Positions 17,764-34,794 of a stretch of 64,000 bases of DNA are shown here, in pieces. This stretch comes from Halobacteriovorax marinus SJ (GTDB taxonomy: Bacteria > Bdellovibrionota > Bacteriovoracia > Bacteriovoracales > Bacteriovoracaceae): positions 3,348,001 through 3,412,000 of the forward strand of contig NC_016620.1 in NCBI RefSeq assembly GCF_000210915.2, written 5' to 3'. Under the pieces are notes generated by a model. The model did not search any database, was not told the origin of the DNA, and saw only the letters and a program-made list of their open reading frames with translations. The translations under genes and the position numbers were made by a program. The stretch's first letter is position 1, and every line of letters begins with the position of its first letter.

Positions 17764-19263
17764 CTAATAATATGACTTTGGATTAATCTCATACTTCTCA
17801 ATTTTTCTAAGCAATGTCTTCTTTGGAATATTTGCTTTTAAAGCCGTTTGATTAATCTTACCTTTATTCATCTTCAAAGCATGGATGATAAATTCTTTTT
17901 CAAATAAGTCTTTTGCAACTTGAAAGTCTAATTTTATTTCATTGTCCTCTGTCACTGTCGCAAAAGTAAATTGATACTTGCTCACTTCAGAGTCTTCTAC
18001 AATATTATCTACTACAGAGTCCTGAATTCCTTTAAAGTCAATTTGTACATTCGACTCGTCAGCATTGTCTTCTGGACCATCTTCAATATTTGCACTCTTC
18101 TTAACAGTCTCAGGAAGTGAAGAGATATGTATTTGCTCTGAAGATTCTATAATGAATGCGTGTTCAATTACATTTCTTAACTCTCTAATATTTCCTGGCC
18201 AAGAGTAGTTTTTAAGAACTTCTTGCGCCTCAGGTACACACCCCTTCATTTCAAGGTGGTGGATTCCATTAAAGTATTTAACATAGTAGTCAATTAAGAA
18301 TGGAATATCTGATTTTCTCTCTCTAAGAGGTGGTAGATAAACCGGAAGGACATTTAATCTATAAAATAAATCTTCTCTAAATGTTCCCTCTTTAATCATC
18401 TCTTCAAATGGCTTGTGTGAAGCCGCAATAACTCTAACATCACACTTAATATCTCTGTTTGAGCCAACAGGAGTAAAAGACTTTTCTTGTAGGACACGTA
18501 AAAGCTTTACTTGCATCGTAGATGAAATGTCTCCGATCTCATCTAAGAATATTGTTCCACCATCTGCATATTGAAACTTACCTATTTTTCTTTCACTCGC
18601 ACCAGTAAAAGCACCTTTCTCATGTCCAAATAACTCCGACTCAATAAGGTTGTCAGGAATAGCGGCGAGGTTAATCGTAACAAATCTCTCATCCTTTAGC
18701 GGCCCATTGTAGTGAATTGCTTTAGCAACGAGTTCCTTACCTGTACCTGATTCACCTCTAATTAGTACTGGCGTATTCACCTGCGCAAGCTTTGAGATAA
18801 CACCAAAAACTTTTTGCATAACATCTGATTCACCAACAAACTTATCATCTCCTGTTCCAAGAGATAGTGAAGGAGCAGAAAAGATCGATGTCTCAACTAA
18901 GCTTCTCGCCTTTAAGGCACGCTTGATAAGAGCGACTAAATTTTCAGATGAAATTGGTTTTTCAAGATAATTATAAGCGCCTTCTTTAACGGCCTTAACC
19001 GCATCTCCAACATTGGAATAAGCAGTAAGTATTAAAACAATTATAGAAGGATCGTATTTCTTTATTTCCGTTAATGCTTCAATACCACTCATCTCTGGCA
19101 TATTCACATCCATAACCACTAGGTCATACTTTTCTTTATAAACGCAACTTAAAGCTTCCTTTCCATTGTCAGCAGTATCAACTTTAAAGTGGTGAAACTC
19201 TAAAGCTTGTTTGACTGAGTCCTGTAAAACTTTGTCATCATCTACAACAAGTACCTTGTGCAT
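17764..19263 (-). CDS. Sigma-54-dependent response regulator, NtrC family
   Basis: 499 residues. The receiver domain spans 1-120 with phospho-acceptor D52 (VVMDVNMPEMSG), T80 and K102. The AAA+ domain (about 142-370) has Walker A GESGTGKE (170-177) and the sigma-54-contact loop GAFTGA (217-222). A roughly 60-residue acidic linker follows, then a Fis-type DNA-binding helix-turn-helix at the end (INQTALKANIPKKTLLRKIEKYEI). It follows the CHASE2 histidine kinase by 15 bases, so they are a cognate pair. A consensus sigma-54 promoter at 34666-34682 in the same window is a candidate target, but other activators may exist. Confidence 0.93.
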   Translation of the reverse strand: MHKVLVVDDDKVLQDSVKQALEFHHFKVDTADNGKEALSCVYKEKYDLVVMDVNMPEMSGIEALTEIKKYDPSIIVLILTAYSNVGDAVKAVKEGAYNYLEKPISSENLVALIKRALKARSLVETSIFSAPSLSLGTGDDKFVGESDVMQKVFGVISKLAQVNTPVLIRGESGTGKELVAKAIHYNGPLKDERFVTINLAAIPDNLIESELFGHEKGAFTGASERKIGKFQYADGGTIFLDEIGDISSTMQVKLLRVLQEKSFTPVGSNRDIKCDVRVIAASHKPFEEMIKEGTFREDLFYRLNVLPVYLPPLRERKSDIPFLIDYYVKYFNGIHHLEMKGCVPEAQEVLKNYSWPGNIRELRNVIEHAFIIESSEQIHISSLPETVKKSANIEDGPEDNADESNVQIDFKGIQDSVVDNIVEDSEVSKYQFTFATVTEDNEIKLDFQVAKDLFEKEFIIHALKMNKGKINQTALKANIPKKTLLRKIEKYEINPKSYY

Positions 19264-19278
19264 TTTATTTCCTTTTGT

Positions 19279-21171
19279 TTATTGATTCTTTAATTTTATT
19301 TTAAAAGTAGTTCCCTGGCCGACTTCTGAAAATGCTTCAATTGTCCCACCATGTAGCTCTACAAAGTATTTTACCAGATATAGGCCAAGTCCGGTTCCTT
19401 TAATTGAGTGACTTGCATCATTTTTAACCCGATAAAACTTCTCAAATACATATTCTAAATCTTCGGGCGGAATCCCTACACCATTATCGCTTATGGTGAT
19501 ATAGACCCATTGCTCATCGTCCCATGTTTTAACATTAACCTCAGAGCCCTCTCCAGAGTATTTTATTGCATTCTCCACCAAGTTAGCAAAAACTCTTTTC
19601 ATTAGTGTTACATCAAATTCAATTGGATATAAAGGGGCTAAGTCTTGGACAACGGTTACATTTTTAGTGTTCGCTTCATAGCGAAGTCCTTCCACAGTAT
19701 TCTCAACAATTGAGTTAATATCTTTTGACTGCATATTCAGTGAAACATTTCTAGACTCTACTTTTGTAAGATCTAAGATGGAAGAGATAAACTTATTCAA
19801 TTCCTTTGTTGAATCGATAATAGATTGCAGACCAGAGGTTAGTTCCATATTTCCCGCATTCTTATGCTTCATTACATCGGCCATACCTGCAATTTTTGCG
19901 ACCGGAGTTTTTAAATCGTGACTCATTAAAGAGATGAAGTTTTGCTTTAAATTCTCAACTTTCTTTAGAAGCTTTGTCTCTTCTTGAATTGCGTATCTTC
20001 TCTGATATTCACCAATGGCCCTAAAAGGAACCCAGATATAATAAACCACAAATACCGTCAGAATAATGTGAGTCACATAGAGCCAAAGTCCCAACATTGA
20101 GAAGAGCAAGTATGCCAAAAGATTTACTCCAAACATCAGAGCAAGAGTCATTGCAAGTCCAGTGGTCGGTCTCATTCTTGAGATTATCACCGAAAGAAAT
20201 AAAGCGATGAGAATTGCGAGAACGTTTGAGACATCTCTTGGAATTTGAAGAATTGTTTTATTTTGAAGAAAGGACTGAATGATCTCTGCGTGTACCGCCA
20301 ATTTTGAAGAAATATAATCTTCCCTATTAAAAGGAGTTAATACAGTGTCATTGGTATTTGAAATATAACTAGGTCCAACTAGAACAATTTTATTTTCAAA
20401 AAAACCTTTTGGAAAATTACCAACCAATACTCTGTGGAAAGGAATTTTCTTTATACGACCTTTTTTAGAGATTGGGTTTGTATAATATCTAAAGAGAGTA
20501 AAGGTCGCATCTGCTTCTTGAAGATAATATGAACCTTGAATGGCCGGAGCATCAAGCTTCTCTAGCCCGCTCTTAGCTCTATTGGCATTAGCCATCCATA
20601 AATGAAAGGACTCCTCACCAGAAATATTAATAAGTGCGCGTCTTGAGATATCATCTTTTGAAAACGTTGAATTATCTTTGTTAAGAAGTGCTAGTGAGTA
20701 ACCTAAGCTTCGCAAATCCATTGGAGGTAAATGCTCATCCCAGTTGTCCATATTTGTACCGAAGCGAAAAATACCTCCACTTCTTATATAGTCTTGAGTG
20801 AGTTCTTTAAAGTGACTAAGGGCCTCTCGTTCTCTTTGAGAATCTGGCTCTAGAAGGCCTACTAAGTAACCAACAGATGAGGGTCTATCTTGCATTAATC
20901 TTTCAATTAAAACTTCATGGGAAGCATAAGTATATGGAAAGCTCTCCCCGAGGAATTGATCACTTTCTTCATCCATGGTGACGAGAACAATTTCATCCTT
21001 AAAAGAAATTCCCCAATCATATTTAATTCGTAAATCATAAAAGACAGCTTCTAGTGAAGCAAAAGAGTATTGAAAGAGTACAACTATAAATATAATTGTA
21101 AAAACTAATGGGTACAGTCTTGAGGTATCAAGCTTCCTTAAATATTCAATGGCAATTTTTAAATAGTTCAA
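19279..21171 (-). CDS. CHASE2-domain sensor histidine kinase
   Basis: 630 residues. An N-terminal membrane helix (about 20-38) is followed by a periplasmic CHASE2 sensor region (about 45-300, including FYDLRIKYDW and KIVLVGPSYISNTNDTV). A cluster of three helices (about 315-382), a HisKA domain with phospho-histidine H418 (SLMSHDLKTP) and a HATPase_c domain (about 520-630, VENAIKYS and GTGLGLYLVK) complete it. CHASE2 ligands are mostly unknown. It lies directly upstream of the NtrC-type regulator and 25 bases after the degenerate M48-like membrane protein, giving a membrane-protein / kinase / regulator / lspA unit that suggests envelope sensing. Confidence 0.93.
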   Translation of the reverse strand: MNYLKIAIEYLRKLDTSRLYPLVFTIIFIVVLFQYSFASLEAVFYDLRIKYDWGISFKDEIVLVTMDEESDQFLGESFPYTYASHEVLIERLMQDRPSSVGYLVGLLEPDSQREREALSHFKELTQDYIRSGGIFRFGTNMDNWDEHLPPMDLRSLGYSLALLNKDNSTFSKDDISRRALINISGEESFHLWMANANRAKSGLEKLDAPAIQGSYYLQEADATFTLFRYYTNPISKKGRIKKIPFHRVLVGNFPKGFFENKIVLVGPSYISNTNDTVLTPFNREDYISSKLAVHAEIIQSFLQNKTILQIPRDVSNVLAILIALFLSVIISRMRPTTGLAMTLALMFGVNLLAYLLFSMLGLWLYVTHIILTVFVVYYIWVPFRAIGEYQRRYAIQEETKLLKKVENLKQNFISLMSHDLKTPVAKIAGMADVMKHKNAGNMELTSGLQSIIDSTKELNKFISSILDLTKVESRNVSLNMQSKDINSIVENTVEGLRYEANTKNVTVVQDLAPLYPIEFDVTLMKRVFANLVENAIKYSGEGSEVNVKTWDDEQWVYITISDNGVGIPPEDLEYVFEKFYRVKNDASHSIKGTGLGLYLVKYFVELHGGTIEAFSEVGQGTTFKIKLKNQ

Positions 21172-33466: not shown

Positions 33467-34633
33467 TTATTTTGAAGCTGGAGCTCTTTCTACTTGTCCA
33501 AATGAAAACCCTCTCTCTTCTGTAATTCTAGCAAACTCTTCTTCAGTCTCTGGCTCAATTACTTCTTCTTCTTCATAGTTTTCATTTTCATCGATTTCAT
33601 AAATATTTTGACCTTGTGCTGATCTTGAAAATTCTGCATCTCTTTGGTCTTCAATAACTTCAATCTTATCAGAAGTTAGATCTCTCATTTCTTCTTTTGC
33701 ATATGCTGCTTCTTCTTCAATTGCATTTAGCTCATCCATCTTCTCAATTGTTACGAAGTTAAGCATTGCTCCTTGAAGTGGTCCAGTTGCAAATCTTACT
33801 CTAAATCCATCTTTTCCATTATTTGTAATTATACCTGTTACTTCACCGCTATTTGTTTCTGCTGAGAATTGACCTCCAGCTTTGATTTCTGGTGAGTTAA
33901 TAAAACCTAGTGGCTGCTCATAGTTCTTTCCAATTCCTACTACAACATTGAACTCTTCAATTCTTCCCGCACCTACTACGATATTTCCTGAAACAACACT
34001 CTCACCTCTTAATACGTTTGGATCTTTTGATGGGTGAAGTGCTCTTTCTAAAACAAGATCTTGTACTCTTTCAATTACAACACCTGTTGTATTTTCTTCA
34101 GCTACTTTTTCAGTGTTCTCTACTCTCTCAACAGCTGCAACTTCTTTAACTTCTACCTTCTTAATTGCTTCAATAATTTCGTAACCCTTACCAAATTGTC
34201 TAAATAGTGCGATTGTTCTTCCACTCTCATCTAAGTAAGAAACTCTTAGAATCATTGGCTCTTCCTCTCCAACTTTTACAAGTGAAGTTCCAACTAATTC
34301 AAAGTTCATTTCTACTTTATTTGATTCCTCGTTAGCATTGAATACAACTTCATTATTCTCATCTTGAATTCTTCTAATTTCCCACTCACCATTAATGATA
34401 CTTGAGTTAAGCTCATTCATTGGTAAGTACTGCACAGCTGGTCTTGCTGCAGTTTCAGAAGCTACATGTCTAACTACCTTTTGATCATCTAATCTCTTTA
34501 CTACCTGAACAGTATTCTTGTTCATAAAATCAGATGAATTAAAGTTAGCATCTCTTACTGCCTTAACTCCAACAAGTACTGAACTAGCAGTTAAAAATCC
34601 TGTTAATGTCTTAAGCGTCAGTAGTGACTTCAT
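33467..34633 (-). CDS. Exported acidic protein of unknown function under a sigma-54 promoter
   Basis: 388 residues. The N-terminus MKSLLTLKTLTGFLTASSVLV is a signal peptide or membrane anchor. The middle has two beta-rich segments (about 85-170, WEIRRIQDENNEVVFNAN; and about 200-300, SVVSGNIVVGAGRIEEFNVVV). The last 80 residues are strongly acidic (NYEEEEVIEPETEEEFARI). No family is recognised. Upstream is a full-consensus sigma-54 promoter (34666-34682) and a GGGAG ribosome-binding site. It is therefore probably a strongly regulated envelope or secreted protein, and the NtrC-type regulator at 17764-19263 is a candidate activator. It is a single-gene unit bounded by terminators. Confidence 0.65.
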   Translation of the reverse strand: MKSLLTLKTLTGFLTASSVLVGVKAVRDANFNSSDFMNKNTVQVVKRLDDQKVVRHVASETAARPAVQYLPMNELNSSIINGEWEIRRIQDENNEVVFNANEESNKVEMNFELVGTSLVKVGEEEPMILRVSYLDESGRTIALFRQFGKGYEIIEAIKKVEVKEVAAVERVENTEKVAEENTTGVVIERVQDLVLERALHPSKDPNVLRGESVVSGNIVVGAGRIEEFNVVVGIGKNYEQPLGFINSPEIKAGGQFSAETNSGEVTGIITNNGKDGFRVRFATGPLQGAMLNFVTIEKMDELNAIEEEAAYAKEEMRDLTSDKIEVIEDQRDAEFSRSAQGQNIYEIDENENYEEEEVIEPETEEEFARITEERGFSFGQVERAPASK

Positions 34634-34665
34634 GGTAATCTCCCTTTCAAACTTACTTATTAATA

Positions 34666-34682
34666 AGCAAGCATCGTGCCAA
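34666..34682 (-). promoter_or_regulatory. Sigma-54 (RpoN) promoter
   Basis: Read on the minus strand, TTGGCACG-ATGC-TTGCT matches the sigma-54 consensus YTGGCACG-N4-TTGCW at every defined position. The start of transcription is expected near 34656, leaving a leader of about 23 bases with GGGAG before the ATG at 34633. A short AGCG-N5-CGCT inverted repeat lies directly upstream of the -24 element. Confidence 0.88.
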
Positions 34683-34765
34683 GCGTTAAGCGCTCAAAAC
34701 AAGGGAAATATGTGTATAGATGCAGTATAAAGTATTGAAATTATGCTAACCCAAAAGATAGGCAC

Positions 34766-34794
34766 AAAAAAGGCCGTCTAAAGATTGGACGGCC
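34766..34794 (-). terminator. Rho-independent terminator of the mrp unit
   Basis: GGCCGTC (34772-34778) pairs with GACGGCC (34788-34794). On the minus strand it is followed by a six-base T-run (34766-34771). It ends the mrp / DUF4388 / ribbon-helix-helix unit and insulates the sigma-54 gene. Confidence 0.9.

Follow-up and report, generated by a model that had tools for sequence, protein, structure and literature searches.

It has been proposed that sigma-54 generally governs what bacteria present on their outside (Francke et al. 2011, PMC3162934), and several described systems can be set beside the locus analysed here. Of these, the PrsK/PrsR sigma-54 regulon of PEP-CTERM proteins has the closest architecture and is the nearest precedent. 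In this regulon an upstream motif and a -24/-12 site stand before many genes for exported proteins, and an NtrC-type response regulator was proposed for it from a phylogenetic profile (Haft et al. 2006, PMC1569441). In Chlamydia, the CtcC/sigma-54 regulon functions as a switch that, when the life cycle passes from one stage to another, turns on secreted effectors and proteins of the envelope (PMC7482065). In the predator Bdellovibrio bacteriovorus, the attack-phase regulon of FliA, a sigma-28 factor, has been mapped experimentally (PMC3627812).

Many of the proteins that predatory Bacteriovoracaceae export have no known function, and the papers searched contained no sigma-54 regulon from this family. 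The stretch of DNA analysed here (the window, 64,000 nucleotides) corresponds to positions 3,348,001–3,412,000 of the 3.436-Mb chromosome of Halobacteriovorax marinus SJ (genome G000). Within it, the gene P0001 very probably has a genuine sigma-54 promoter with an enhancer architecture, belonging to a secretion regulon that would be controlled by one pair of NtrC-family activator site and promoter. The regulon seems to be undescribed, while its mechanism would be an ordinary one of sigma-54, enhancer, IHF and NtrC-type activator. Its interest lies in the regulon itself, and in a short R-x-[VILP]-A-S motif, rather than in a single promoter.

Like the PrsK/PrsR system, the proposed Bacteriovoracaceae regulon comprises exported proteins with a common short sequence tag, encoded by single genes behind a motif and a -24/-12 site. 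It differs in having its own palindrome and its own tag, R-x-[VILP]-A-S, which is mostly N-terminal and is carried by only a minority of the regulon; no C-terminal signal of PEP plus a TM segment was seen. P0001 has no PEP-CTERM domain, and two candidate regulators, P0003 (374.8 bits) and P0004 (378.1 bits), do not reach the cut-off of the PrsR model (TIGR02915; 502.6 bits). The bias of targets towards surface or exported functions is shared with the survey of Francke et al.; that survey is general, however, a text search of it finds no Bdellovibrio, and the palindrome is not described there. The Chlamydia regulon likewise places a group of envelope and secreted proteins under a sigma-54 switch, but its lineage and gene set are unrelated to those of the Bacteriovoracaceae. 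The FliA regulon shares the use of an alternative sigma factor, the many surface and unknown proteins, and its occurrence in a predator of the same phylum; it is a sigma-28 regulon of another bacterial family, whereas the regulon considered here combines sigma-54 with an enhancer and has been defined computationally.

The sigma-54 promoter of P0001 and its upstream elements

The features of the P0001 locus are as follows:

33467..34633, minus strand: gene P0001, whose exported product of 388 aa has an acidic tail and is predicted to contain two beta-barrel domains
34640..34644, minus strand: ribosome-binding site GGGAG, assigned from sequence
34666..34682, minus strand: sigma-54 -24/-12 promoter TTGGCACGATGCTTGCT, 0 mismatches to YTGGCACGN4TTGCW
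34728..34740, minus strand: IHF-like site TTTCAATACTTTA, pattern WWTCARNNNNTTR, between palindrome and promoter
34773..34793, minus strand: candidate activator-binding palindrome (UAS) GCCGTCCAATCTTTAGACGGC, 0 mismatches to RCYGTCYAANNNTTRGACRGY

The minus strand reads TTGGCACG-N4-TTGCT at 34682–34666, a perfect sigma-54 promoter with the -24 GG and -12 GC at 10-bp spacing and with consensus flanks. The ATG of P0001 at 34633 lies 32 nt 3' of this site with GGGAG between the two, and the transcript is predicted to start near 34655. Both the full consensus match and the 32-base spacing had been noted in the initial annotation, and both hold. At no more than one mismatch to YTGGCACGN4TTGCW the chromosome contains 15 sites (3 of them perfect), compared to 3 for the reversed pattern, and dinucleotide shuffles of the window contain a mean of 0.12 matches at the same stringency. 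Most of the 15 lie 5' of genes, many of which encode exported proteins and one of which is a flgF-type flagellar rod gene. Among 434 genes predicted in 464 kb of the genome, no other has a site with two or fewer mismatches within the 260 bp upstream. RpoN is encoded at about 2.67 Mb and contains Sigma54_CBD and Sigma54_DBD domains together with an ARRTVAKYRE box.

When 59 relatives were searched at the protein level, 18 of them, all from the same family (f1), proved to have an orthologue of P0001 besides H. marinus itself. In 17 of the 18, a GG..GC footprint with 0–4 mismatches to the strict consensus is found 16–43 nt before the start; the one orthologue without it (L033) is incomplete and degraded. 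Annotated genomes supplied three more homologues that keep the sigma-54 site (L083, L084 and L086), and a fourth (L080) has a weaker one. The locus is also syntenic in relatives, with the order mrp, P0001, etfA/etfB and acyl-CoA dehydrogenase. The conservation of the footprint is the strongest evidence for a sigma-54 promoter at P0001.

The palindrome is 21 bp long (RCYGTCYAA-N3-TTRGACRGY) and is a candidate activator site. In the orthologous promoters RCYGTCYAANNNTTRGACRGY lies about 78–129 bp (mostly 100–118) before the GG, with a mean of 2.6 mismatches compared to 6.8 in shuffles, while the IHF-like site is mostly found 53–56 bp before the GG. Two or fewer mismatches to the palindrome occur in 10 of 22 orthologous promoters, compared to 0.02% of shuffles; the palindrome is weak (4–6 mismatches) in another 9, and WWTCARNNNNTTR is exact in 13 of the 22, compared to 1.6% of shuffles, all these percentages being optimistic because the motif definitions were drawn partly from the scored sequences. 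Palindrome, IHF-like site and promoter together make up, as judged from their arrangement, a complete sigma-54 enhancer architecture. The initial annotation, which missed the two conserved upstream elements, had placed the gene under sigma-54 control; the footprint in 17 of 18 orthologues and the presence of activator-like and IHF-like elements support this.

In the proposed mechanism, an NtrC-family activator would bind the palindrome at 34773–34793 and IHF would bend the DNA at 34728–34740; the activator would remodel sigma-54 polymerase at 34682–34666 and so turn on the exported two-barrel protein. The same pair of activator site and promoter would drive a family-wide regulon of mostly unrelated exported proteins and lipoproteins, P0001 being one output of a regulated secretion programme in these bacteria.

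The palindrome and promoter pair in the family

Genome counts with reversed controls provide a test of the palindrome that is independent of the orthologue set. With up to three mismatches, 44 palindrome sites per strand are found in H. marinus compared to 15 for the reversed pattern, and the best of these are followed, 48–101 bp further on, by sigma-54-like sites that belong to other genes. Relaxing the pattern to GTCTAAANNTTTAGAC with 3 mismatches was useless (300 matches vs 355 for its control). The combined pattern TAGACRGY-N36..66-TGGCN8TGC occurs at 54 sites in 37 genomes of the family, compared to 2 for the reversed control; a looser version of the pair is at chance level in 13 genomes from other families of the phylum.

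At 43 of 51 pair sites examined in the family, the gene that follows at promoter distance has a signal-peptide-like or lipoprotein N-terminus, compared to a baseline of 135 of 434 genes (31%) in 464 kb of the H. marinus genome (Fisher p = 2e-13); export was called by a crude rule on N-termini, and the 43 include a few starts that were set by eye, automatic detection having given no ribosome-binding site. No relationship links the targets to one another: they comprise small Cys- or Ser-rich peptides, beta-rich proteins of 118–122 aa, coiled proteins of 460–490 aa, lipoproteins and others. The pair thus appears to mark a family-wide regulon of mostly unrelated exported proteins and lipoproteins. 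Because many unrelated exported proteins would be co-regulated, a life-phase secretion programme is more likely than a single stress effector. The palindrome-plus-promoter signature is searchable and yields a testable list of genes; if the regulon is active at a stage of prey invasion, that list would point to the secreted proteins used then.

Several individual sites deserve mention. Two palindromes of H. marinus (L100 and L088; G000:C1 190281-190301 and 192098-192118) belong to paralogous tiny exported proteins of 67 and 62 aa, which share a C-I-[KR]-N-Q-S-T-Q-A-R motif and each have their own palindrome and sigma-54 site; similar exported peptides of 56–70 aa are found behind pairs in other genera (L116, L129, L178, L179 and L190). 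A good palindrome at G000:C1 3053552-3053572 (L098) falls within the beginning of a gene for an exported protein, 3' of that gene's sigma-54-like site (L013), and is possibly a downstream enhancer or a chance match. Another, with one mismatch (L090; G000:C1 about 2673568), overlaps the start codon of a lipoprotein gene directly behind rpoN and a gene resembling a ribosome-hibernation factor. Finally, seven good sigma-54 sites (L005, L006, L008, L011, L012, L014 and L015) have no palindrome; several lie 5' of exported proteins and one lies 5' of the flgF-type rod gene, and at least one more sigma-54 sub-regulon is therefore implied.

Candidate activators and alternative readings

Five NtrC-family proteins of H. 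marinus have an intact GAFTGA or GSFTGA motif and a sixth has GAFSGA; the others lack it. As the initial annotation correctly recognised, one GAFTGA protein is encoded in the window beside a CHASE2 kinase and lspA:

17764..19263, minus strand: P0003, NtrC-type response regulator with receiver, GAFTGA AAA+ and Fis-type HTH domains; candidate activator
19279..21171, minus strand: CHASE2 sensor histidine kinase that probably pairs with P0003

The initial annotation pointed to this pair and suggested that P0001 may be an envelope-stress or life-phase effector. The reading in which the CHASE2 kinase and P0003 form the activating system and P0001 is an envelope-stress effector is possible but less likely. 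P0003 has the GAFTGA motif, and the family shows high conservation of the protein and of its recognition helix; its targets would be exported proteins, and its gene is near lspA and lies about 14–17 kb from P0001 in relatives with both on one contig. That linkage is, however, explained by general synteny, and no UAS is found near the P0003 operon. Moreover, P0003 is present in almost every genome of the family and is equally conserved in three that lack pairs (G006, G028 and G031). P0003 is one of two plausible candidates.

The second candidate, P0004 (G000 2933451-2934989), is encoded upstream of the flgB-flgC-fliE-fliF-fliG cluster. All 17 relatives with a sigma-54 site at their P0001 copy encode it, and most genomes of the family that lack pairs do not (p = 0.0015 and 0.004 in Fisher tests without correction for phylogeny). 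At the threshold used P0004 was not found in G009, though this genome has one convincing pair, and neither protein matches the distribution of pairs perfectly. The recognition helices of both are near-invariant. Co-occurrence slightly favours P0004, which is tentatively put forward as the activator; P0003 would be the next choice, and is a possible one.

Two other proteins were considered and rejected. The phylum-wide activator P0002 (G000 3272493-3274061) is found in nearly all genomes searched, including those of families without the regulon, and a palindrome-like site 57–77 bp upstream of it, which might have indicated autoregulation, is in relatives a different conserved sequence, TGCCGAAAAGTTNNACAG. 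The FHA-like activator P0005, present in nearly every genome of the family, was set aside because its DNA-binding region varies (29% identity across the family) while the palindrome is constant. P0006 was left out of the comparison, its orthology being too unclear. Separately, TGCCGAAAAGTTNNACAG is strongly conserved about 60–130 bp before the starts of P0002 orthologues in most genomes of the family (L132-L160), and includes the block GCCGAAAA, which recalls the -10 box of sigma-28 promoters. Near P0004, directly before flgB-flgC-fliE-fliF-fliG, is a gene for an AAA+ protein that resembles sigma-54 activators and lacks GAFTGA (L069 and L217; G000:C1 2929562-2930503); it is probably unable to act on sigma-54 and may serve some other function.

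A further reading accepts the promoter but takes the palindrome to be nothing more than the hairpin that terminates the preceding gene, with activation from elsewhere or without an upstream site. In the genus Halobacteriovorax the palindrome has GC-rich ends, is followed by a T-run and resembles such a hairpin, so that in this genus it may indeed serve as a terminator; other sigma-54 sites of H. marinus, for example that of flgF, have no such palindrome. In other genera, however, the palindrome is kept without the T-run (L024, L025, L083 and L084), and is therefore not only a terminator. Its distance to the promoter is narrow, and it recurs before unrelated sigma-54 promoters in strong excess over the control. 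A role confined to termination is accordingly improbable. That the motifs are chance or base-composition matches, with P0001 expressed from another promoter, is scarcely credible: the region is AT-rich, but the reversed-pattern controls, the shuffles and the deep conservation all argue against chance, and there is no convincing sigma-70-type site upstream of P0001.

The P0001 protein and the R-x-[VILP]-A-S motif

Under the favoured reading, an enhancer-dependent sigma-54 promoter, the product of P0001 would be one of many exported targets. It has an N-terminal signal-like hydrophobic segment, beta-rich regions at about 82–158 and 191–294, and a Glu-rich tail. The signal sequence, two beta-rich segments and acidic tail described earlier are thus confirmed by sequence and model, as is the statement that the protein fits no known family: Pfam, NCBIfam and PDB-sequence searches gave no significant match. 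Weak Pfam matches (HIN, ATP-cone and others) were dismissed as chance, having E values above 0.02 and involving a different family for each orthologue.

An AlphaFold2 model from 11 sequences contains two beta-rich domains, with a pLDDT of 61 over the full length and 69 for residues 62–298. The best Foldseek matches in the PDB are DUF4822 (E 1.5e-05, with TM below 0.3 over the whole model) and lipocalin-like proteins, all with low TM scores over the whole model. When the second domain was compared with 8-stranded barrels by VIA-align 2, a designed barrel scored Z 9.9, the barrels of TbpB, NHBA, hemophilin/HphA and HpuA scored about 8, and fHbp and odorant-binding proteins scored 7–8. P0001 is predicted, with modest confidence, to contain two lipocalin-like barrels. 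The predicted 8-stranded barrel of its second domain likens it to TbpB, fHbp, HpuA and hemophilin, but there is no sequence similarity to these proteins and a shared fold says nothing of function. From this modest-confidence fold it can only be guessed that P0001 binds a ligand or a partner, either at the cell envelope or further out.

The protein carries two copies of the short motif:

34457..34471, minus strand: motif RHVAS (R55-S59) of P0001, invariant as R-x-[VI]-A-S in orthologues
33473..33487, minus strand: C-terminal motif RAPAS (R383-S387) of P0001, with R, A and S invariant

The R, A and S of both copies are invariant in the 11-sequence alignment (A3). Across 47 regulon proteins besides P0001, the N-terminal 120 residues contain R-x-[VILP]-A-S 10 times compared to 0.31 expected from composition, while single-position variants of the motif occur 0–1 times in the same proteins. 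It is carried by 9 of the 47 (about 5 independent families) compared to 2 of 134 background exported proteins, an enrichment with p = 0.0001 by protein and 0.008 by family.

A role for R-x-[VILP]-A-S as a proteolytic or sorting site is the guess that first suggests itself; if correct, it would imply an undescribed maturation step. The more far-reaching idea, that the regulon serves specifically for export and maturation and that the motif is the recognition site of a processing or sorting enzyme at both ends of P0001, is speculative and unlikely. Such a system would correspond in function to PEP-CTERM/exosortase, or to sorting by other tags, but would use a new tag. The motif is also present, as RAPAS and RNVAS, in two exported proteins that do not belong to the regulon (L211 17734-18313 and L213 17729-17990); it is therefore not restricted to the regulon.
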